A stretch of 64,000 nucleotides of DNA from Microbacterium sulfonylureivorans (GTDB taxonomy: Bacteria; Actinomycetota; Actinomycetes; Actinomycetales; Microbacteriaceae), in the NCBI RefSeq assembly GCF_003999995.1, contig NZ_RJAD01000001.1:1860001-1924000 (forward strand), given 5' to 3'. The translations under genes and the position numbers were made by a program. The first letter of the stretch is position 1; every line of letters starts with the position of its first letter. Of this stretch, positions 12,140 through 21,890 are shown piece by piece. Below the pieces are notes generated by a model, which was not told where the DNA came from, ran no database searches, and saw only the letters and a list, made by a program, of their open reading frames with translations.

Positions 12140-12940
12140 ATGGCCGCCAAGGACCTCACTCGCCAGATCGTCGTCATCAGCGCCTTCTGCTTCATGATCA
12201 TCGCCGCCATGGTCGGCACCGGACTGTTCGGCGGAACGCCGGTGCAGGACCTGCAGGACGGCGCCCTCGACGCAGACGGGTCGTTCCTCGCGCCGGCGCG
12301 TCCGGCGTTCTCCATCTGGACGGTCATCTACGTCGGCCTCTTCGCCTACACGGTATGGCAGGCGCTCCCCCGGCAGCGGTCGCGGTCGCGTCAGCGGGCC
12401 GTGGGGTGGCTCATCGCGGCGACGATGGTGCTCAACGGCGTGTGGCTGGTCACGGCGCAGTTCGCGACGCTGCCGCTCACGGTCCTCGCGATCGTCGTCC
12501 TGCTGGCGGTGCTCGGCCTGACTTTCCGGCGCACGGTGACCGACCCGGGGCGCGGATGGATCGACTCCCTGCTGATCGACGGCGTCACCGGGCTGCACCT
12601 CGGCTGGGTGACGCTCGCCACGGTCGCGAACACGACCGCGTGGCTCACCACGATCGTCGCCGACGACGCCGCGGACTCCGCGACGCTGTGGGGCGTCCTC
12701 GTCCTGGTCGTCGTCGCGGTCATCGGAGTCGGGATCGCGTGGGCGAGCGGCTGGCGCATCGCGCCGGGCCTGGCGATGGCGTGGGGCCTCTCCTGGATAG
12801 CTGTCGGGCGCCTGGCCTTCGAGCCGCCGAACACCGCGATCGGCGTCACTGCGATCGTCGTCGCGGCGATCGTCCTGCTCGTGCCGGTCGTCGGCACGGT
12901 GCTCCACCGCGCCGCCGATGTGCGCAACGCCGAGGTCTGA
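12140..12940 (+). CDS. TspO/tryptophan-rich sensory-like membrane protein
   Basis: The 266-residue protein has about eight hydrophobic segments. The motif FLAPARPAFSIWTVIYVGLF (about 50-69) matches the P(A/P)FxIWTxIY signature of a large actinobacterial TspO-like family, longer than the roughly 160-residue classical TspO. Such proteins are linked to tetrapyrrole binding or stress, but the role of this long form is not established. TAGCGT (12128-12133) lies 6 nt before the ATG, again a leaderless arrangement. The stop codon abuts the stop of the convergent amidotransferase with no spacer. Confidence 0.75.
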   Translation: MAAKDLTRQIVVISAFCFMIIAAMVGTGLFGGTPVQDLQDGALDADGSFLAPARPAFSIWTVIYVGLFAYTVWQALPRQRSRSRQRAVGWLIAATMVLNGVWLVTAQFATLPLTVLAIVVLLAVLGLTFRRTVTDPGRGWIDSLLIDGVTGLHLGWVTLATVANTTAWLTTIVADDAADSATLWGVLVLVVVAVIGVGIAWASGWRIAPGLAMAWGLSWIAVGRLAFEPPNTAIGVTAIVVAAIVLLVPVVGTVLHRAADVRNAEV

Positions 12941-13708
12941 TCAGTCGGCGTCGGCCGGGCCGAACCGCTGCGCGAACGCGCGCAGCAGGCGCACCGGCTC
13001 GGTGACGGATGACGCGAGCACGCGCGCTGCGACGACGTCGTAGTCGTTCGCCTCGAAGTAGCCGTCGTCGCGGTACACCGCCATGCGCTGCGTGAACGCC
13101 TTCGTGGTCGGCTCGGGGTGGAACTGCGTCGCGTAGAGCCGGTCGCCGACGACGTAGGCCTGGACGGGGCATCCGTCGTTCACCGCGAGGAGGGTCGCGC
13201 CCGGAGGCGGGACGGCCGTGCCCTCCTTGTGTGCCGTGAGCGCCGTGAAGCGCGTGGCGAGTCCGCCGAACAGCGGATCTCCCTGGCCTGCCCTGGTGAG
13301 CTCGATCGTCACCGGACCGGTGTCTTCGGGGTACGCGCGACTCACCTCGCCGCCGAGCATCCGCGTGACCACGCCGATGCCGTAGCACGTGAACAGCGCG
13401 GCGGGTGCGTCGTCGTCGCCGGGCGTCCCCTCGGCGACCCGGCGGGCGATGCGCTCGAGGCCGGCCTCGACGCGGCGCTGGACGTCGGTCTTGGTCGACT
13501 CGGGGTCGGCGAGGTTGAACGGGCTGCCGCCGACGAGGAAGCCGCTGTAGCGGTCGAACACGTCGTCGGGGAGCGGCTCGCGCACGAGGTCGAGATGGCC
13601 GAGCCGACTCTCGTCGAGCTTCATCGCGGTGCGGAACGATTCGTACTCGGCGGCCGCCGCTCCCTGTTGCGGCCGCACGCACACATAGAGCAGTGGCGCG
13701 GTCGTCAT
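12941..13708 (-). CDS. Class I glutamine amidotransferase-like protein
   Basis: The 255-residue protein has the GATase1 fold: the nucleophile-elbow segment LFTCYGIGVVTRMLGG provides the Cys, and ATQFHPEPT supplies the catalytic His-x-Glu. It resembles the free-standing GuaA-like amidotransferases of actinobacteria, which hydrolyse glutamine or gamma-glutamyl compounds; the acceptor is unknown. ATG 13706-13708 is selected because TAGAAT (plus strand 13716-13721) lies 7 nt upstream, indicating a leaderless transcript. The in-frame ATG further upstream would cover that promoter. Confidence 0.85.
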   Translation of the reverse strand: MTTAPLLYVCVRPQQGAAAAEYESFRTAMKLDESRLGHLDLVREPLPDDVFDRYSGFLVGGSPFNLADPESTKTDVQRRVEAGLERIARRVAEGTPGDDDAPAALFTCYGIGVVTRMLGGEVSRAYPEDTGPVTIELTRAGQGDPLFGGLATRFTALTAHKEGTAVPPPGATLLAVNDGCPVQAYVVGDRLYATQFHPEPTTKAFTQRMAVYRDDGYFEANDYDVVAARVLASSVTEPVRLLRAFAQRFGPADAD

Positions 13709-13766
13709 GCCGTGAATTCTAGGTCGCGGCATCCGCATCCGCATTCCCGGAGAAATCGCACGAGAC

Positions 13767-14438
13767 ATGTATCAGTCGCCACCTATCGCTCTCCACGTTG
13801 GTGTGGACACAATGGGCGTCATGATGCATGCGGGCGCTGGGGCATCCGCCGACTCGGTCGAGCCGGCGCGATGGGAGCGTGCCGCGGCGCTGTTCGTGCG
13901 CTGGCGCGACGGCGACAGCCGCGCGATGGACGAGCTCGTCCGGCTCATGACGCCGCCGCTGTGGCACGTCGTGCGCGCGTACGGGCTCGATGCGGCACTC
14001 GCGCAGGATGTCGTGCAGACGACGTGGCTGACGCTGGTGCGCCGTCACGAGACCATCCTCGACGCGCAGGCCGTGTCGGGATGGCTGACGATGTGCGCGC
14101 GCCGCGAGGCGTGGCGTGTCGGCAAGCAGCAGCGCCGCGCCGATCCGACCGAGGCCGAAGCGCTCGAACCCCATCTGCCGGTCCACGAATCCGCGGAGCA
14201 GACCGCCGCCACCGACGACGCCTCGCGTCGGCTGTGGATCGCGGTCGCGACGCTCAACGAACGATGCCAGCGCCTGCTGCGGATCGTCGCGTTCGAGGAC
14301 CGCCCCGACTATGCGCGCATCGCAGAGGATCTCGCGATGCCGATCGGGTCGATCGGACCGACCCGCCAGCGCTGTCTCGCCAAACTCCGGGCTGAACTCG
14401 AGGGCGCCGGATGGGGAGGAGATGATGATGGACACTGA
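13767..14438 (+). CDS. ECF-like sigma-70 family sigma factor
   Basis: The protein has up to 223 residues with a sigma region 2 (about residues 35-90; LAQDVVQTTWLTLVRR) and a region 4 helix-turn-helix (about 165-210; YARIAEDLAMPIGSIGPTRQRCLAKL). It resembles the group that is found beside subtilisin and CHAT genes. The start is uncertain: ATG 13767, 13812 or 13821 are all in frame, and none has a clear ribosome-binding site. It overlaps the next gene by 11 nt and heads a co-directional block with a subtilisin and a CHAT protease. It presumably directs transcription of this block or of partner genes, which is an inference. Confidence 0.85.
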   Translation: MYQSPPIALHVGVDTMGVMMHAGAGASADSVEPARWERAAALFVRWRDGDSRAMDELVRLMTPPLWHVVRAYGLDAALAQDVVQTTWLTLVRRHETILDAQAVSGWLTMCARREAWRVGKQQRRADPTEAEALEPHLPVHESAEQTAATDDASRRLWIAVATLNERCQRLLRIVAFEDRPDYARIAEDLAMPIGSIGPTRQRCLAKLRAELEGAGWGGDDDGH

Positions 14439-14895
14439 GGACTTCGCCGCGGATGCGGCGCTCTTCGCACGACTGCGCGCGGTGTGGGAGGAGGTGGATC
14501 CGGCGCCGGCCGACCTCGTCGATCGGATGGTGGCCGCCGTCGCCGTGGAAGACCTCTCTCGCGAGTACGCGCTGCTGACGCTCGTGGAAGGGACGCTCGC
14601 GGCGGTGCGCGGCGAAGCCGACACCGCGACGCTGCAGTTCAGCGACGGCTCGACGACGGTGCTCCTCCACGTCTCCGTGACGGAGGACGGCGGCCGCCGG
14701 GTCGACGGATGGGTGGATGCCGCGGCCCTCGCGATCCGCCTCACCCAGGGCGAGCGCGAGTGGTCCGCAGAGGCCGGCGAGCACGGCCGATTCGCGTTCG
14801 ACGAGGTCACGCCGGGGGTGGCGCGACTGCGCATGGTCGTGAAGGACGCCACCGGCGAGCTGCGCGACTTCCAGACGCCGCAGTTCGAAGTGTGA
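14428..14895 (+). CDS. Small unknown protein between sigma factor and subtilisin
   Basis: AGGAG (14417-14421) is 6 nt from ATG 14428; ATGs at 14422 and 14425 are alternatives. The 155-residue product has an acidic, helical N-terminus (residues 1-45), a beta-rich middle part (LQFSDGSTTVLLHVSV) and a C-terminal stretch (GRFAFDEVTPGVARLRMVV) that resembles a carboxypeptidase-regulatory/transthyretin-like strand pattern. It has no membrane segment, so it is not a classical membrane anti-sigma factor. Position suggests that it regulates the sigma factor or the proteases. The function is unknown. Confidence 0.75.
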   Translation: MDTEDFAADAALFARLRAVWEEVDPAPADLVDRMVAAVAVEDLSREYALLTLVEGTLAAVRGEADTATLQFSDGSTTVLLHVSVTEDGGRRVDGWVDAAALAIRLTQGEREWSAEAGEHGRFAFDEVTPGVARLRMVVKDATGELRDFQTPQFEV

Positions 14896-14960
14896 TCGAC
14901 CCCGACATCGGGGAGCGGCTGCGACGAAGGACGTCGCCCGCGATGAGGAGGTAGCGAGAG

Positions 14961-16595
14961 ATGGCAGCAGCAGGGGAACCCGGCTGGCGGAACAGAGTCG
15001 ATGCGGCACGACCCCGAGGCGTCCCCCTGGACCCGACGAGCGAACCGGTCGACGGCGTCCGCGCCTACCCGACCTCCTATGCGCCGGACCACCTCCTCGT
15101 TTCCGACGCCTCGCGTCTGCCGGAGATCCTCGAGACGCTCCGTGAAGCCGCCGCCGACTTCGGCTGGGGTGTGCGCCTGACTACGATCAAGGGCGAGCGC
15201 CTCGAGGAGCAGGACGCGATCGAGCGCGCGCGCCGAGAAGAGGCCGAGACGGGCCTGCCGATCGTGCTGCTCGCCGTCATCTTCCCGTCGCCGCGCGACG
15301 ACCGCGACGACCAGCCCGTTCCTCCGATCGACGCCTGGCGTCTGCTGCAGCGCGCCCGCGCCCGTCGAGGGACCGACATCGCCGGCGTGGGCCTCGATCA
15401 CGTGATCACCGTCGACCCGTTCGGCTCGACCAACCCCTTCGGTTCGACCAATCCGTTCGGCTCGACGAACCCGTTCGGATCGACCAACCCCTTCGGCTCG
15501 ACGAACCCGTTCGGCTCGACCAACGCTCCCGGCCCGGGAAGCTACGCCTACCCGGGATCCGGCGGTCGCGAGGTCGTGACCTACATCGGCGACCCGCCCC
15601 GCCGCGACGACTCGGCGATCAAGGGCCGGCGCCCCGTGGTCGCGTTCATGGACACCGGGTGCGGGACGCACCCCTGGCTCCCGGGCTCCATCGTCGAACG
15701 TCATCTCAAGCTCGACGGCGAACCCGTCGGCATCTCCGACCCCGCCACCGACCCGGAGGCCATCGGCGATCTCGCGGGGCCCTACGACGGATTCCTCGAC
15801 GGCGCGTCCGGACACGGGACGTTCGTCGCCGGAGTGATCCGGCAGGTCTGCCCCGACGCCGACCTGATCTCGATCCGCGTCGCCGACAGCCAGGGCGCTC
15901 TCCTCGAGGGCGAGTTCCTCGAGGCGGTCCGTGCGGTCGCCGTCCTGGTCATCCGCTACGCACGCGGCAAGGGCGGGCGTCCAATCGACGTGCTCAGCCT
16001 CTCGCTCAGCTACTACCACGAGACGCCCGACGACGGTCAGTTCGACCTGACCCTGATCAAGTACCTGCTCGCCGCACGGCGGCACGGCTGCGCCGTCGTC
16101 TGCTCGTCGGGCAATGACGCGACCGACCGGCCGGCGTTCCCGGCCGCACTGTGGGCGTGGCCGGGTGCCGACTTCGTCGTCGAGGATCCCTCGGATGCCG
16201 CGCCCCATGTCTCGGTCGGCGCGCTCAACCCGAACGGCACGTCGGTCGCCCTCTTCAGCAACGTCGGGCGGTGGGTGCGGTGCTACGCGCCGGGGGTCTC
16301 GGTCGTCAGCTCGCTCCCGCCCATGAACGGCGGAGTGCAGGCCGGCACGCGAAACGATCGATTCGGGCTGCGGCGCGAGACCGTCGATCCCGATGACTTC
16401 ACCGGCGGGTTCGCCGTCTGGAGCGGCACCTCGTTCGCCGCGCCGTACATCGCGGGCACCCTCGCCGAGATGGTCGGCGTCGGTCTGATCGACGGCCGCG
16501 CGAAGGAGGACGCCAAGGCGCGCGTCAAGGCCCTCGTGAAGGCCGGCGAGACGGTGCTGCGGGACTGGGACGGTCACCGGCGCGCTCCGGCCTGA
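14961..16595 (+). CDS. S8 subtilisin-like serine protease, apparently cytoplasmic
   Basis: This 544-residue protein has the complete S8 triad: Asp231 in FMDTGCG, His285 in GHGTFVAG and Ser491 in SGTSFAAP, with oxyanion Asn385 in SSGND. There is no signal peptide or C-terminal anchor, so it probably acts inside the cell. The N-terminal domain (about 1-150), which contains LLVSDASRLPEILETLREAA, may be an inhibitory or regulatory domain. It is joined to the protease by six tandem PFGSTN hexapeptides (residues 153-188). A GAGG-type site lies before ATG 14961. It is followed after 31 nt by the CHAT gene, so the two proteases are probably co-expressed. Substrates are unknown. Confidence 0.92.
   Translation: MAAAGEPGWRNRVDAARPRGVPLDPTSEPVDGVRAYPTSYAPDHLLVSDASRLPEILETLREAAADFGWGVRLTTIKGERLEEQDAIERARREEAETGLPIVLLAVIFPSPRDDRDDQPVPPIDAWRLLQRARARRGTDIAGVGLDHVITVDPFGSTNPFGSTNPFGSTNPFGSTNPFGSTNPFGSTNAPGPGSYAYPGSGGREVVTYIGDPPRRDDSAIKGRRPVVAFMDTGCGTHPWLPGSIVERHLKLDGEPVGISDPATDPEAIGDLAGPYDGFLDGASGHGTFVAGVIRQVCPDADLISIRVADSQGALLEGEFLEAVRAVAVLVIRYARGKGGRPIDVLSLSLSYYHETPDDGQFDLTLIKYLLAARRHGCAVVCSSGNDATDRPAFPAALWAWPGADFVVEDPSDAAPHVSVGALNPNGTSVALFSNVGRWVRCYAPGVSVVSSLPPMNGGVQAGTRNDRFGLRRETVDPDDFTGGFAVWSGTSFAAPYIAGTLAEMVGVGLIDGRAKEDAKARVKALVKAGETVLRDWDGHRRAPA
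15417..15524 (+). repeat. Six in-frame 18-bp repeats encoding PFGSTN
   Basis: Six contiguous 18-bp units encode PFGSTN x6 within the subtilisin gene. Units differ by synonymous changes only (for example ACC/ACG and AAC/AAT), so the peptide is kept while the DNA diverges. Copy number could vary between strains by slippage without a frameshift. Confidence 0.95.
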
Positions 16596-16626
16596 AACGC
16601 GGGGTGGACTGCGCCAAGATGAGGGA

Positions 16627-19095
16627 GTGACGCGCTCCGCCTCGGAACTCCATCGGCGCGCCGTTGATCTGTGCATCAACGGCAAGTACGCCCAGGCTCA
16701 GCGCGTCCTCGATCAGGCTGACGCGCGCACCGACGATCCCGACCTCCGGGCCAGGATCGTCGGCACGCGCGCCCTGGCGCTCCAGCGCACCGGATTCCCC
16801 GCGCAGGCGGAGGAGCTCCTCATGACCGCCGTCGCAGGGCCGGATCTCGCTCCGCACACGCAGGCGATCCTCCTCGGCCAGCTCGGGGCGATCGCGAACT
16901 ACGGCGGCCGGCTCGACGAGGCGGAGCGCTGGCTCACGCGGGCGATCGAGAGTCTCGCGGAGGACCCGGTCCCGGCGGCGCGCACGCGTGTGAACCGCAG
17001 CCTGGTGCGCATGCAGCAGCGCCGGCTGGGGGATGCCGCCGACGACCTGGAACGGGCATCGACGACGTTCGCCGACCACGACCTCGCCACCGACGAGGCC
17101 CAGGCGCGACACAACCTCGGCTACACCTCGCTCCTCGCGGGCGATCTGGTCGGTGCCCTGCGGGAGATGCTCGCCGCGCGGCCGGTCGCGGCATCCACCC
17201 CCGTCAACGCGGCGATCACCGACGTCGATCGCGCGGAAGTGCTGCGTGACGCCGGGCTCACGACCGAGGCGGAGCAGATTCTCGCCCGCGCGGCGACGGT
17301 GTTCGGATCGCACCGGATGCCGCAGTCCCGCGCCGAGGCGGAATTCCATCTCGCGCGTTCGCTGCTCTCGCACGACAGCTCCCGAGCGAGCCGGGTCGCC
17401 CTCTCGGCCTCACGGCGGTTCCGAGCCGTCGGCAACGATGCCTGGGCTGCCCGGGCCGACGCCGTGCGCCTGCGCGCGATGCTCGGCGGGCTCCGCGTCG
17501 AGCAGGCAGGCTCGTCTCGGCGGCGCATGCCGACGCCCGCGGAGGTCGACGGGGTCGCCGACGAGTTGATCTCCCGGGGATTCCGCGGTGAGGCGGCTGC
17601 GCTCCGCATGTCGGAGGCGCTCGCGCGCGCCCGCCGAGGAGAAGACGCGGGTCGCGACATCCGCGTGCCGTCGTCGGCGCCGATGGAGGTGCAGCTGCTC
17701 GCGGCCGAGCTGCGCTCCGCCCGGGCGGCCGCCGCGAACCGGGGCGCGGCTGCTCGTCGTCACGCGGCGAAGGGGCTCGACGTGCTCGCGGGCTGGCAGC
17801 GCACATTCGGGAGCCTCGACCTGCAGACCTCGGTCGCGATGCACGGCGGCAATCTCATCTTCGCCGGGCTCGATTCGGCCGTGCGCTCAGGTCGTCCCGA
17901 CGTCGTCTTCGAATGGTCGGAGCGCGCGCGCCACCTCAGTCAGCAGGTCGTCCCCCTGCGCCCGCCCCCCGATCCCGCGCTCGCGGAGGAGCTGGCCGAG
18001 CTGCGCATGCTCCGCGCCGAGAACCCCGGCGGCGACTGGCTCTCGGTGCCCCGGGCCGCGGCGCTGCGAGAGCGTGCCCGAGAGCGCCAGTGGTCGTCGA
18101 CGGGGGCCGTCGACGGCGAGGAGCGCATCGACCTGGAGCGGCTGCGCGGCGAGCTCACGGACGACACGGCGCTCATCGCCTACGTCTACTCGGGCTCGGC
18201 CCTCGTCGCGCTGGTCTGCACGCTCGAGCGCACCGTGGTCGTTCCCGTTGCCTCGGATGCCGCGGTGCGTCGCCTCCTCACCGGCCTCCGTGCCGACCTC
18301 GACATGTCGGCGTCGATCCGCACGCCGCCGATGGCCGACATCGTGCGCCGTGGCCTCGACGACCGGCTGCGCGCCCTCTCGGAGGCGCTTCTCGACGGGC
18401 CGGCAGCGATCGCCGGCACGCGCCGGCTCGTGCTGACCACGCCCGGTCTGCTCAACTCGATCCCGTGGGCGATGCTGCCGGCGATGCGGGGTCGCGTGTT
18501 CACCCTTGCGGTCTCCGCGACGCGGTGGGCGCATCTGCGGCCCCATGGCGCGTTCCCGAGCGAGACCGCCGGTTTCGCTGTCGGACCCCGTGTCGCGCGC
18601 GGCGAGGAGGAGGTCGAGACGGCGGCCGAGTCGTGGGGTGGGTCGGTGGTGTTGCAGGGGGATGCGGCATCCGTCGATCGGGTGACCGAGCTCGCGTCGC
18701 GCGTGGACGTCCTGCACGTCGCCGCGCACGGCCGCCACGCGGTCGACAACCCGCTGTTCTCGGGTCTCGAGCTCGCCGACGGCGCACTGTTCGGCTACGA
18801 CATCGACCTCATGCCGGAGGTGCCCGACACCGTCGTGCTCTCGGCGTGCGAGGTGGGACGATCGTCGGTGCGTTGGGGTGAGGAGGCGATCGGGATGACG
18901 CGCATCTGGCTGCACGCAGGCACCCGGTGCGTCGTGGCGGCACCGGTCATCGTCGCGGACGATGTCGCGTGCGAACTCCTGGGCGCGATGCACGAGGGCC
19001 TCGCGGCGGGCCGTGCGCCGTCGGAGGCGCTCGCGGCCGCGTCCGAGCACACCGGGATCGTGGCCCCGTTCCAGGTGCACGGGGCGGGGTTCTAG
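16627..19095 (+). CDS. TPR-CHAT protein (caspase-like protease)
   Basis: The 822-residue protein has N-terminal helical TPR-like repeats (for example GKYAQAQRVLDQADA and GRLDEAERWLTRAIE, spanning about 1-250), a mixed helical middle, and a C-terminal CHAT domain (about 500-822). The catalytic His-Cys dyad is visible: His701 in HVAAHGRH and Cys741 in VVLSACEVG. CHAT proteases are clan CD relatives of caspases and separase and are commonly effectors in bacterial conflict or regulated-death systems. It is cytoplasmic, with no membrane segment. GTG 16627 is 6 nt after CAAGAT (16615-16620), which may be a weak internal promoter. It is the last gene of the sigma-subtilisin block. Confidence 0.92.
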   Translation: MTRSASELHRRAVDLCINGKYAQAQRVLDQADARTDDPDLRARIVGTRALALQRTGFPAQAEELLMTAVAGPDLAPHTQAILLGQLGAIANYGGRLDEAERWLTRAIESLAEDPVPAARTRVNRSLVRMQQRRLGDAADDLERASTTFADHDLATDEAQARHNLGYTSLLAGDLVGALREMLAARPVAASTPVNAAITDVDRAEVLRDAGLTTEAEQILARAATVFGSHRMPQSRAEAEFHLARSLLSHDSSRASRVALSASRRFRAVGNDAWAARADAVRLRAMLGGLRVEQAGSSRRRMPTPAEVDGVADELISRGFRGEAAALRMSEALARARRGEDAGRDIRVPSSAPMEVQLLAAELRSARAAAANRGAAARRHAAKGLDVLAGWQRTFGSLDLQTSVAMHGGNLIFAGLDSAVRSGRPDVVFEWSERARHLSQQVVPLRPPPDPALAEELAELRMLRAENPGGDWLSVPRAAALRERARERQWSSTGAVDGEERIDLERLRGELTDDTALIAYVYSGSALVALVCTLERTVVVPVASDAAVRRLLTGLRADLDMSASIRTPPMADIVRRGLDDRLRALSEALLDGPAAIAGTRRLVLTTPGLLNSIPWAMLPAMRGRVFTLAVSATRWAHLRPHGAFPSETAGFAVGPRVARGEEEVETAAESWGGSVVLQGDAASVDRVTELASRVDVLHVAAHGRHAVDNPLFSGLELADGALFGYDIDLMPEVPDTVVLSACEVGRSSVRWGEEAIGMTRIWLHAGTRCVVAAPVIVADDVACELLGAMHEGLAAGRAPSEALAAASEHTGIVAPFQVHGAGF

Positions 19096-19207
19096 AACTC
19101 TCCGAGAATTCTTCGGATCCGATGTATCAGGGTCGTGGCGGTGTGCTCTTGGTCATCGGGTCTGTTCACGCGCGACGGCGACTCTGGGGGCGCCGGCACT
19201 GGGAGCA

Positions 19208-19303
19208 GAAGGTCACCTCATGGGGAGAGCGTCTGGGGACGTGTGACCTTCGGAGCAGATCCGACGGGGGATGTCGCAGAGACCCAGGTCGGCGACATCC
19301 CCC
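19208..19303. terminator. Two hairpins between convergent CHAT and LysR-domain genes
   Basis: GAAGGTCAC (19208-19216) pairs with 19243-19251, and GGGGGATGTCG (19266-19276) pairs perfectly with 19293-19303. The second has an 11-bp stem and a 16-nt loop and lies about 27 nt from the stop of the leftward gene. They probably terminate the two converging transcripts. Nothing else is seen in 19096-19329. Confidence 0.6.
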
Positions 19304-19329
19304 GGTTTCGTCCCCTCGGCGTGCCGGAG

Positions 19330-20124
19330 TCAGCCGCGCGACGAGTTCGCGGTGCGTCCGCGCACGATCCCGACGAACGCCTCCACCGCCGGTGTGGTCC
19401 GTTCGGCCACCCATGCGAGCGCGACCGTCGAGACGGGTCCGTCACGCAGCGGTCGATGTTCGACGTCCTTGCGCTGGTGCAGCCGGGCGAGCGACATCGG
19501 CACGATGACGACACCGACGCCGGCGGCGACCGTCGCGATCGCCTCGCCGGTATCGGCCGGGGGTGCGAACTTCGGTGCGACGGCGCCGGGCACCCGGATG
19601 CCGAGCACGTCGTCTTCGGCCGCGATCACGATCTCGCCGGAGAGGTCGTCGAGGCCGAGGTCGTCGGCGGCGGTGAGGTGCGATTCGGCCGCCGTCACCA
19701 CGACCGGGACCTCGTCGTAGAGCGGGATGACGTTGAGCCCGCCGGCTTCGATCGGCAGGCGCACGAGAGCGGCGTCGACCTCGGCCGCGTCGAGCGCGCG
19801 GCGCTGATCGGCGACCGCGAGGGCCACGAGCTCGAGGGCGATACCGGGAAGGCGGTCGTTCCAGAGGTCGATCCACTTGCCCGGCGTCGCACCCGGGATC
19901 GCCCCGAGGCGGAAGGGCCCCGTCACGACGGGGGCGGCGACGTGCTCGGGCTTCGGCGCCGCCTTCGCCTTCGGGTGGGGCTTCGCGCCGGGCTGGCCCT
20001 TGCCTCCGGGCTTGACGCCCTTGCCGCCCTTACCGCCGGCGCCGCCGGTCTTGCCGGAGCGGCGGGGTGCGGCATCCCGGCCCGACTTCCCCGGCCGCGC
20101 TCGCGAACCACCGCCCTTTGCCAT
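19330..20124 (-). CDS. Stand-alone LysR effector-binding domain with a basic tail, no HTH
   Basis: The 264-residue protein starts at ATG 20122-20124, with TACGCT (plus strand 20132-20137) 7 nt upstream, a leaderless arrangement. Residues 1-60 are a disordered Lys/Gly/Pro/Arg-rich tail (GGKGGKGVKPGGKGQPG). Residues about 65-255 match the LysR substrate-binding fold (FRLGAIPGATPGKWIDLWND and GVGVVIVPMSLARL). The winged HTH expected at the N-terminus of LysR proteins is absent, and no frameshifted HTH coding is visible upstream, where DUF1304 begins on the other strand. The basic tail could bind nucleic acid, but this is speculation. Confidence 0.8.
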   Translation of the reverse strand: MAKGGGSRARPGKSGRDAAPRRSGKTGGAGGKGGKGVKPGGKGQPGAKPHPKAKAAPKPEHVAAPVVTGPFRLGAIPGATPGKWIDLWNDRLPGIALELVALAVADQRRALDAAEVDAALVRLPIEAGGLNVIPLYDEVPVVVTAAESHLTAADDLGLDDLSGEIVIAAEDDVLGIRVPGAVAPKFAPPADTGEAIATVAAGVGVVIVPMSLARLHQRKDVEHRPLRDGPVSTVALAWVAERTTPAVEAFVGIVRGRTANSSRG

Positions 20125-20158
20125 GTCGTTCAGCGTAGCCGGGCGATATCGTTCGCTC

Positions 20159-20557
20159 ATGGTCGCGATCCTCGCCACGGTCTTCGCCGCACTCGCGGCG
20201 CTCCTGCACGTCTACATCTTCGTGATGGAGAGCGTCCAATGGACGCAGCCGAAGATCTGGAAGCGGTTCGGAGTCGCCGACCAGGCGGCGGCCGAGGTCA
20301 CCAGGCCGATGGCGTACAACCAGGGGTTCTACAACCTGTTCCTCGCGATCGGCACGGCGATCGGGCTCGTGCTGTTCCTGAGCGGATCCGACGACTCGGC
20401 GCTGCGCGCAGCCGGGCTCGCGCTCGTGCTGTTCAGCCTCGGATCGATGGTGGCGGCATCCCTCGTCCTGCTCACCACGGGGATGAAGTACCTGCGCGCC
20501 GCGCTCACGCAGGGCACGCTGCCGCTCATCGGCTTCGTGCTCTTCCTGTTCGCCTGA
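20159..20557 (+). CDS. DUF1304 family membrane protein
   Basis: The 132-residue protein has four hydrophobic segments and the family hallmark HVYIFVMESVQWTQPK (about residues 16-31) followed by NQGFYNLFLAIG. This is typical of DUF1304, a small integral membrane family of unknown function. TATCGT (20147-20152) lies 6 nt before the ATG. It is divergent from the LysR-domain gene with only 34 nt between their starts, so the two promoters are adjacent. Confidence 0.88.
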   Translation: MVAILATVFAALAALLHVYIFVMESVQWTQPKIWKRFGVADQAAAEVTRPMAYNQGFYNLFLAIGTAIGLVLFLSGSDDSALRAAGLALVLFSLGSMVAASLVLLTTGMKYLRAALTQGTLPLIGFVLFLFA

Positions 20558-20560
20558 GCG

Positions 20561-21136
20561 TCAGTCGCACGCGCTCCACCGGCCGGCTCCGGATGCCTCG
20601 GCCCCCGCCTGTGCCTCGCTGAGCAGGTCGGAGAAGGCGACGTTGGGCCGGACCGCCATCGCCTCGGCGTCGCCAGCGGCGACGAGCTCGTGGTTGACGA
20701 ACCGGCCGTCGTCGGTCCACAGGTTGAACAGCCGGCGCCCGTAGTCGTCCCACGTCTCGCGGTCGGGGGCAGCCCACACGGTCGAGCCCGGGGGCAGCAG
20801 GGTGCTCAGGTGTGCGCGGGCCTCCTCGGCCCAGCACTCCGGTGTCGGCGTTCCCTCGGGGGTGTCGATGCCGATCAGCCGGATGCGGATCGGGTTCGAG
20901 GTCGTGACGACGTCGTTGGGCTGCAGCATCCGCGCCTCGATGGTGTCTCCGTCGAAGACGTACTCCACGGTGAGGGGGAAGGCGTCGGTCGGACGGGGAG
21001 GGATGCCGAGGGCCGGCGTCGGCGCGGTCGTGGGCGCCGCGTCGCCGATCCGGCCGGTGCTCGAGGAGAGCCAGATCACCCCCGCGACAAGGGCGGCCGC
21101 GAGGAGGATCACGACGGCGGTGACGACGCGCTTCAC
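20561..21136 (-). CDS. Membrane-anchored or secreted SNase-like nuclease
   Basis: The 191-residue protein has an N-terminal hydrophobic helix (about 4-25, VVTAVVILLAAALVAGVIWL), a Pro/Thr-rich linker and a staphylococcal-nuclease-like domain (about 50-185). Catalytic landmarks are DGDTI, RIRLIGIDTPE (Arg, Asp and Glu) and DYGRRL (second Arg). It is expected to act outside the membrane on nucleic acids. GTG 21134-21136 is chosen because TAGGGT (ACCCTA at 21144-21149 on the plus strand) is 7 nt upstream. It ends 3 nt from the convergent DUF1304 stop. Confidence 0.85.
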   Translation of the reverse strand: MKRVVTAVVILLAAALVAGVIWLSSSTGRIGDAAPTTAPTPALGIPPRPTDAFPLTVEYVFDGDTIEARMLQPNDVVTTSNPIRIRLIGIDTPEGTPTPECWAEEARAHLSTLLPPGSTVWAAPDRETWDDYGRRLFNLWTDDGRFVNHELVAAGDAEAMAVRPNVAFSDLLSEAQAGAEASGAGRWSACD

Positions 21137-21201
21137 GCTCGGCACCCTAGTCGGCGCGGCAGACGTCGCCGTCCGACTCGTGCCGATCCGGATCGATGCG
21201 G

Positions 21202-21609
21202 TCAGGCCGCCAGACGGAGCCCTCGCTGGTCGGTCGCGACGCGCTCGCCGTCGGCGATGGTCTCGTCGTCTCCGATGAGGGATCCGACGGCCACGCGCGC
21301 CTCGCTGCCGACGTGGGTGCGGACGCCGATCTTCGCGCCTGCTCCGATGGCGGCGCGGGGGCCGATGTGGGCGTGCGGCGCGATGTCGGCGTCGGGGCCG
21401 ATCACGGCATCCGTCTCGACCCACACGCCGCGGCCGACGTGCGCTCCCGCGGCGATCTGCGCCCCGGGCTCGACATATGCTCCCGCTTCGACGATCGCGC
21501 TCGGGTGGACCTTCGCGCCGTGCGCGATGAGGCCTCGACCGTTGACGTGCTTGCGGTAGCGCAGCATCTCGCCCCGGTCGTTCTCGATGTCGATGTAGTT
21601 CTTGCCCAC
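21202..21609 (-). CDS. Left-handed beta-helix (hexapeptide repeat) protein
   Basis: The 135-residue product starts at GTG 21607-21609, 5 nt after an AGGAGGGG ribosome-binding site. From about residue 30 onward it consists of imperfect hexapeptides ([LIV]-G-x4 type; for example VEPGAQIAAGAHVGRGVWVE), which fold into a left-handed beta helix as in acetyltransferases and gamma-carbonic anhydrases. It is short and lacks an obvious acyltransferase catalytic region or C-terminal helix, so enzymatic activity is uncertain. The stretch 21610-21890 upstream holds no gene that I can support. Confidence 0.8.
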   Translation of the reverse strand: MGKNYIDIENDRGEMLRYRKHVNGRGLIAHGAKVHPSAIVEAGAYVEPGAQIAAGAHVGRGVWVETDAVIGPDADIAPHAHIGPRAAIGAGAKIGVRTHVGSEARVAVGSLIGDDETIADGERVATDQRGLRLAA

Positions 21610-21890
21610 AGTCCCCTCCTGCAGCAACGAATCGTGCTGAGTACAGGAATAACGACGATCCCCGGTGATTCATTCCCGTGCATCCGTCCCTCGGACGCAT
21701 CGGTTATTCGGTGCCGCGAGCCAGGCGGATTGCGAGCGGGCTCCGAGCCGCCCGACGAAGTCCCCGGTCGCCGACGCGCAACCGCCGCTGGACGACGGTC
21801 TCCTGCCAAACGTGCACGCCTTTCGGACACGTGCCGCCCGCATCCGCACGTTGTGAGCGTGTTCGCGCGCAGGCCGACCAGAATCGAGAC

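Follow-up and report, generated by a model that had tools for sequence, protein, structure and literature searches.

Why should a sigma factor be encoded side by side with two proteases? The question is raised by a locus of Microbacterium sulfonylureivorans that lies in a 64,000-nucleotide stretch of contig NZ_RJAD01000001.1 (forward-strand positions 1,860,001 to 1,924,000; here called the window, whose numbering we use throughout). Four intact genes follow one another on the plus strand and encode an extracytoplasmic function (ECF) sigma factor, a small protein, an S8 subtilase, and a TPR-CHAT protease (Table 1). A first-pass annotation had read them as a protease cascade under a dedicated sigma factor and as an undescribed system; it had overlooked a peptide array within the subtilase, two promoter-like motifs, and an RNA gene 3' of the CHAT gene. 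Taken as a whole, the locus has in our estimate about an even chance of being an intracellular, protease-gated switch for an ECF54-type sigma factor.

Part of the answer is already in print. A 2022 review (PMC8999054), which attributes the ECF54 group to Huang 2015 and Casas-Pastor 2021, places carboxypeptidase, subtilase, and CHAT proteins in the gene context of these sigma factors and proposes proteolytic control without an anti-sigma factor. The neighborhood described here matches that published context, and the word "undescribed" has to be withdrawn. The likeness rests on gene context, as sequence typing of the sigma factor reaches the general sigma70-ECF model (TIGR02937) only. Shared with the review's ECF54 account are the carboxypeptidase-like, subtilase, and CHAT neighbors, the lack of a recognized anti-sigma factor, and the proposed proteolysis. 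The locus differs in that the "carboxypeptidase" appears to be a non-enzymatic protein of two helices and a beta-sandwich, and in that its peptide array, shared promoter, and small RNA go unmentioned in that account. For the array and the RNA, no description was found in the openly licensed literature, a scope that leaves the founding ECF54 papers outside. We regard the locus as a known kind, by its ECF54 context, with two features found nowhere described, the array and the RNA.

Four conserved genes and the pairs among them

Coordinates and Pfam matches bear out the first-pass picture of four co-directional genes with sigma, S8, and CHAT domains. The S8 triad, said to be intact, and the CHAT dyad are invariant in 78 of 78 and conserved in 20 of 20 aligned sequences, respectively. 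Both proteases also look intracellular, as had been claimed: by a simple hydropathy test, an N-terminal signal-like hydrophobic stretch was seen in none of 46 S8 and none of 47 CHAT proteins, but internal hydrophobic stretches occur in 9 and 22 of them, respectively, the window's included. The gene starts had to be revised. The small gene begins at one of three ATG codons (14422, 14425, or 14428) and overlaps the sigma gene. The sigma start at 13767 coincides with the -35-like part of a promoter-like motif that is conserved, and translation therefore probably begins at 13803-13824. At an E cut-off of 0.001, the genome of the organism has no CHAT match besides the protein of the locus.

Table 1. 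Features of the locus, in window coordinates
Feature	Position	Strand	Basis
ECF-type sigma factor	13767..14438	+	Sigma70_r2 (Pfam) E 1e-7; TIGR02937 54.6 bits
Promoter-like motif 1	13768..13792	+	TGTATCA (-35-like) N13 GCTCT (-10-like)
Small protein, 157 residues	14422..14895	+	only sub-threshold CarboxypepD_reg (Pfam)
S8 subtilase	14961..16595	+	Peptidase_S8 (Pfam) E 1e-20; triad D231/H285/S491
Tandem peptide array within S8	15417..15527	+	P-(FGSTNP)5-FGSTNA, residues 153-189
TPR-CHAT protease	16627..19095	+	CHAT (Pfam) E 5e-26; sub-threshold TPR_12; dyad H701 (18727-18729)/C741 (18847-18849)
Promoter-like motif 2	19123..19149	+	TGTATCA N15 GCTCT, 27 bp past CHAT stop
Structured non-coding RNA, UGGGG loops	19155..19312	+	R1 model match 19146-19312, 140.7 bits; start site inferred
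Terminator-like 3' hairpin of the RNA, GGGGGATGTCGC...GCGACATCCCCC	19265..19304	+	covarying pairs

A survey with the CHAT protein as sole query returned 39 loci, the closest named relatives being Microbacterium. All four genes are present in 33 of them. Four of the remaining loci are cut by contig ends (L005, L012, L024, L040), L028 has no S8 gene, and L034, from Leekyejoonella, has neither sigma nor small-protein gene at the site, the small protein lying on another contig with the sigma factor beside it. The record of L024 is titled Planococcus sp. and carries a Microbacterium-type locus at a contig end; the contig or the title may be misassigned. A class-wide search of 246 genomes with an S8 profile gave 25 matches at E 1e-30, of which 11 were full-length, including the window's own. 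All four genes, in variable order, occur in each of the 10 other genomes whose S8 protein is full-length. The other 14 matches, aligned over the catalytic half or less, were set aside as probable ordinary subtilases; one of them, in G006, borders a contig end and might be a truncated relative. Among 119 genomes of the genus, 60 have the S8 protein, 60 the small protein, and 59 both, and the four genes were found in 30 of the 31 S8-positive genomes that were fetched, the remaining one being cut by a contig end. This neighborhood comparison upholds the proposal that the genes form a conserved unit, and the objection that they are usually unlinked fails because all four co-occur.

Co-variation was measured by pairwise distances in 36 Microbacterium-type loci with 500 permutations, and again in 41 loci after distant ones had been added. 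In the 36 loci, the sigma factor and the small protein (rho 0.82) and the S8 and CHAT proteins (rho 0.51) are correlated at values reached in none of the 500 permutations, whereas the small protein and S8 (0.18, 39/500) and the sigma factor and CHAT (0.20, 31/500) are not closely coupled. The small protein and S8 adjoin in all but L011, L029, L035, L074, and L075, and since these mostly neighboring genes are nevertheless weakly correlated, adjacency alone does not explain the pattern. (In L035, from Microbacterium elymi, sigma, S8, and CHAT seem to be split into shorter frames, by real decay or by sequencing errors.) We infer two functional pairs with reshuffled alleles. Counting against such pairs, the cross-pair values rise in the 41 loci to 0.53 for small protein and S8 and 0.63 for sigma and CHAT (both 0/500), as deep relatedness would give; sigma and small protein stay highest at 0.91.

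The AlphaFold model of the small protein (29 sequences; predicted local distance difference test score 86.7) has helices at residues 3-25 and 32-56, a low-confidence stretch at 52-62, and a beta-sandwich from residue 68. Foldseek returned weak matches to CopC/Ig-like sandwiches, and, of 29 members, 8 matched CarboxypepD_reg with E values no higher than 0.05 (the best being 2e-4). As these are only weak matches to a regulatory-like beta-sandwich, we rejected the label "carboxypeptidase". In view of its linkage, its co-variation, and precedent, the small protein is a candidate anti-sigma factor, and we lean toward that role. A precedent is the CRISPR-linked CASP/Craspase system, in which Csx30 blocks CASP-sigma by binding it and is itself cut by Csx29 (PMC10028731, PMC11106740).

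Two points speak against an anti-sigma role: the small protein has no detectable anti-sigma similarity by Pfam, PDB sequence, or Foldseek searches, and the ECF54 account in PMC8999054 proposes regulation that dispenses with such a factor. Nor did sequence families reveal a recognized anti-sigma domain elsewhere in the locus. Both points fit an alternative in which the proteases degrade or trim the sigma factor itself, with the small protein serving as adaptor or folding partner. This alternative leaves less well explained that sigma and small protein are the tightest co-varying pair and stay together even when S8 and CHAT are elsewhere. Their genes overlap, the usual layout of sigma and anti-sigma genes, and the inspected part of the sigma alignment shows no long C-terminal extension. 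We consider control of this kind, bypassing an anti-sigma step, fairly unlikely.

A tandem peptide array in the subtilase

In the predicted model of the subtilase, a propeptide-like domain (residues 39-150) is packed N-terminally, so that the enzyme is a predicted propeptide-type zymogen. The array lies at the junction of propeptide and catalytic domain, in a low-confidence linker of the model. It differs in this from the pro-subtilisins and PCSK9, which are S8 proteins with a propeptide: the S8 protein of the locus has no export signal and carries tandem units of 5-8 residues at the junction. The units are near-identical within a protein and different between species, with 67 different unit strings among 133 arrays and about 3 to 9 copies each. 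A protein repeat that is kept alike inside every protein yet changes in sequence from species to species is unusual. A core of proline and an aromatic, aliphatic, or histidine residue is found in 127 of the 133 arrays, and other unit residues vary (G-S-T versus G-K-T or G-R-T). Differences between array copies are silent in 335 cases and non-silent in 72, and selection by this measure acts on the array. The unit was also considered as a tag common to other proteins and rejected as such: FGSTNPFG, searched as DNA with TTC as the only first codon, occurs 5 times, all within the S8 gene.

The core suits the S1 pocket of subtilisins. We tentatively read the array as a cis substrate or plug of its own subtilase, a reading to which we give slightly less than an even chance. 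In the 36 loci, the unit distance follows the S8 catalytic domain (0.49) and the TPR part (0.42) more closely than the CHAT domain (0.21). Two results tell against this reading: of 166 S8 relatives, 133 have a detected array and 33, including several fragments, were not scored as having one, and in the 41 loci the TPR part (0.60) is level with the catalytic domain (0.59), the sigma factor reaching 0.37.

The array might instead be a CHAT cleavage site, so that CHAT cuts the tether and turns the subtilase on, which is the cascade of the first-pass annotation. The co-variation and adjacency of S8 and CHAT, the position of the array in a predicted linker, and the way the unit follows the TPR part in both sets of loci would all suit this idea, and three reported Craspases cut non-conserved sites (PMC11106740). 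The unit nevertheless correlates more strongly with the S8 catalytic domain than with the CHAT domain, its core fits a subtilisin pocket, and the swings from G-S-T to G-K-T or G-R-T leave CHAT no constant charge to recognize. We judge cleavage by CHAT unlikely, and prefer the array as a cis element of the subtilase. A neutral, slippage-prone linker would explain the variable copy number and the turnover of units, but is very improbable given the excess of silent differences, the presence of arrays in most relatives, and their nearly constant Pro-hydrophobic core.

Promoter-like motifs and a structured RNA

A motif, TGTATCA-N12-16-GCTC, is shared by the region upstream of the sigma gene and the region just 3' of the CHAT gene. 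In many loci, TGTATCA and GCTC-like bases stand before or inside the first sigma codons, and a ATGTATCAG-like block is present in 42 sigma-upstream regions; under a strict -10 pattern, no sigma-upstream motif was listed for L002, L006, L028, L038, L073, L074, and L075. Of 49 loci, 42 have GTATCA within 130 nucleotides past the CHAT stop and none has it there on the opposite strand; among background windows, it occurs in 101 of 5658. In Leekyejoonella, the motif precedes both of the unlinked operons, and hence it is likely the sigma factor's own promoter. One of these copies heads a leader of about 190 nucleotides before the S8 gene (L034:4161-4374), with hairpin-like stretches and CTGGGG, perhaps an RNA-like element. 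The organism's own genome has four TGTATCA-N12-16-GCTC sites, two of them at the locus, and the reversed-pattern control also gave four; a wider regulon was discarded, as the sites beyond the locus do not exceed this control.

The second motif copy heads about 150 nucleotides that end in a hairpin. For the copy in the window, the folding energy is -84.9 kcal/mol (z -4.5), and z falls below -2 in 35 of 40 copies. An alignment (A6) of 24 of the 40 cut RNA sequences, from which 5 others had been omitted earlier as unlike or cut, has a closing helix and a terminal hairpin and is the basis of the RNA model R1. Covariation was counted on 30 copies in an alignment that was fitted to the structure: 97.2% of cells are paired and 11 of 19 pairs changed on both sides, which none of 500 shuffles equaled, while slid structures drop to 41-64% paired cells. 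The terminal hairpin accounts for 12 pairs, with 100% of cells paired and 6 pairs changed on both sides. UGGGG occurs 95 times in the 40 copies against 28.4 expected and is unpaired in 51% of cases against an average of 31%. In the own genome, R1 has one strong match (E 9e-22; next E 0.05). R1 also yields weak reverse-strand matches at the palindromic hairpin. Within the genus, it matches 26 of 119 genomes, all S8-positive and some of them probably those from which R1 was built, and none of 59 S8-negative genomes. Like Rfam families, the element is a small structured RNA with a terminator-like hairpin; none of these families matches 19155-19312, the three Rfam 15 matches at E up to 5 within 18900-19500 lying outside it. 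Microbacterium allomyrinae (L032) has the RNA gene twice (L032:8494 and L032:11541), at a distance of about 3 kb and with a separate motif for each copy.

We consider it very probable that the RNA gene is real, and, judging from the motif that heads it, probable that the sigma factor of the locus drives it. Against this, of 16 copies outside its training set, R1 recovers only 6 at E < 1e-4 (L006, L008, L016, L027, L017, L040) and weakly matches L039 and L030, the other 8 not being listed at E up to 1. Only 26 of the 60 S8-positive genomes are matched. Among 31 R1-negative loci with a CHAT end (the S8-less G277 included, and some from the same species as earlier loci, e.g., L119 and L021), the motif follows CHAT in 25 and is absent in 6, and z is below -2 in only 12 of the 25 divergent RNAs. 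In L069 and L071, the motif after CHAT precedes an open reading frame (ORF) of 105 residues instead of the RNA (in L069 on the minus strand). The idea that this ORF encodes a protease inhibitor was dropped, the ORF126-like match being below the cut-off. The 25 divergent loci do keep UGGGG (47 against 14.8 expected, 2 on the opposite strand), with one locus having none. A plain operon terminator plus a promoter for a short peptide would account for the terminator-like hairpin, but is highly improbable in view of the second covarying helix, the UGGGG excess in both sets, and the lack of a conserved complete ORF in the 40 copies.

A proposed protease-gated sigma switch and its alternatives

In the model that we put at about an even chance, the small protein would hold and silence the sigma factor; its two N-terminal helices would make the contact, and the flexible linker joining them to the beta-sandwich would be its vulnerable spot. 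The TPR part would read a signal and switch on CHAT, which, together with the subtilase in most species, would destroy the small protein; that CHAT itself cleaves it is a tentative proposal, somewhat below even. The freed sigma factor would then fire the TGTATCA/GCTC promoters, the step best supported by sequence. The promoter before the sigma operon would give positive feedback, and the one after CHAT would yield the small RNA with UGGGG loops, which is the main output identified and would act on some target. The subtilase would be kept as a zymogen whose propeptide is tethered by near-identical subtilisin-like sites (core x-Pro-Phe/Tyr); the array would most likely occupy the enzyme's own active site and have to be cut to free it.

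The closest known parallel is Craspase (Cas7-11-Csx29-Csx30-Csx31-CASP-sigma). Both combine an ECF sigma factor with an adjoining TPR-CHAT cysteine protease, in which TPR repeats are followed by a His-Cys dyad, and with a protein that would sit between the two, and the locus would share the autoregulated transcriptional output. The locus differs in its extra subtilase and its RNA output. Pfam found no Cas7-11 (gRAMP) or CRISPR genes among the six flanking proteins, the extent of that scan, and PDB profile searches yielded just TPR-type proteins and no significant hits, Csx29 and Csx30 not being among them. The locus may operate in the manner of Craspase, yet it is not a Craspase itself. The anti-sigma proteolysis of RseA by DegS and RseP is similar in that a protease would release an ECF sigma factor; here, in contrast, the parts look soluble and intracellular, and the protease and inhibitor families are different ones.

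Of the cascade idea, the link between proteolysis and the sigma factor is likely to hold. The subtilase as an obligatory member does not: no such S8 protein was detected at E up to 1e-20 in G277 or in the genome of L028, and since two genomes keep sigma factor, small protein, and CHAT but lack it, it is dispensable, which also counts against the model above. In two variants, L028 and L125, these three genes occur in a genome where such a subtilase was not detected, and the usual motif is missing right after CHAT.

The role in conflict or regulated cell death suggested earlier finds little support. In such a phage-defence or cell-death system, the proteases would be killing effectors and the sigma factor would only tune their level. 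PADLOC matches of S8 (generic subtilase, E 2e-9; partial IetS, E 7e-6) and the Craspase precedent agree with this, as do the faster evolution of S8 and CHAT (median distances 0.52 and 0.45) compared with the sigma factor and small protein (0.32 and 0.31), the patchy occurrence in 60 of 119 genomes, and the 23 of 49 loci not shown to lie at a common site, partly owing to contig cuts. PADLOC, however, matches neither CHAT nor the small protein and gives the sigma factor no more than a stray match (Cas12f, E 0.005), 26 of the 49 loci occupy the same chromosomal site, unlike a typical defence island, and the clearest output is a regulatory-looking RNA. We disfavor the defence-island reading on the PADLOC results and the common site, and regard a defence role as improbable.

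The common site lies between GATase/TspO-side and LysR-like/DUF1304-side genes; Pfam assigned the six flanking proteins of the window to GATase, TspO, LysR-like, DUF1304, and a nuclease, with one unmatched. Its flanks in the window are 12140-13768 and 19330-20557 (GATase and LysR-substrate genes, homologues of which flank the 26 loci). In L019 and L022, these two genes adjoin each other and the locus is just outside; in the remaining loci one or both flanking genes are missing, in some through contig cuts. Nearby, a minus-strand ORF (20561-21700) has a C-terminal staphylococcal-nuclease-like domain.

A bolder version of the protease-gated switch would be a CRISPR-independent circuit from caspase-like protease to sigma factor to RNA, with a zymogen carrying a lineage-specific, self-homogenized peptide barcode that matches the active site of the same enzyme, in effect a counted fuse, and with small UGGGG-loop RNAs of a new class as the main output. 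We hold this to be possible and somewhat doubtful. ECF54 is filed as proteolysis-controlled, and the review's ECF54 account gives no mechanism. Such a mechanism can be tested directly through the promoter motif, the candidate anti-sigma factor, the zymogen tether, and the RNA, which can serve as a reporter. If the model is true, the control of sigma factors by CHAT proteases, known from the CRISPR Craspases, would extend outside CRISPR, and a new structured RNA would be added.

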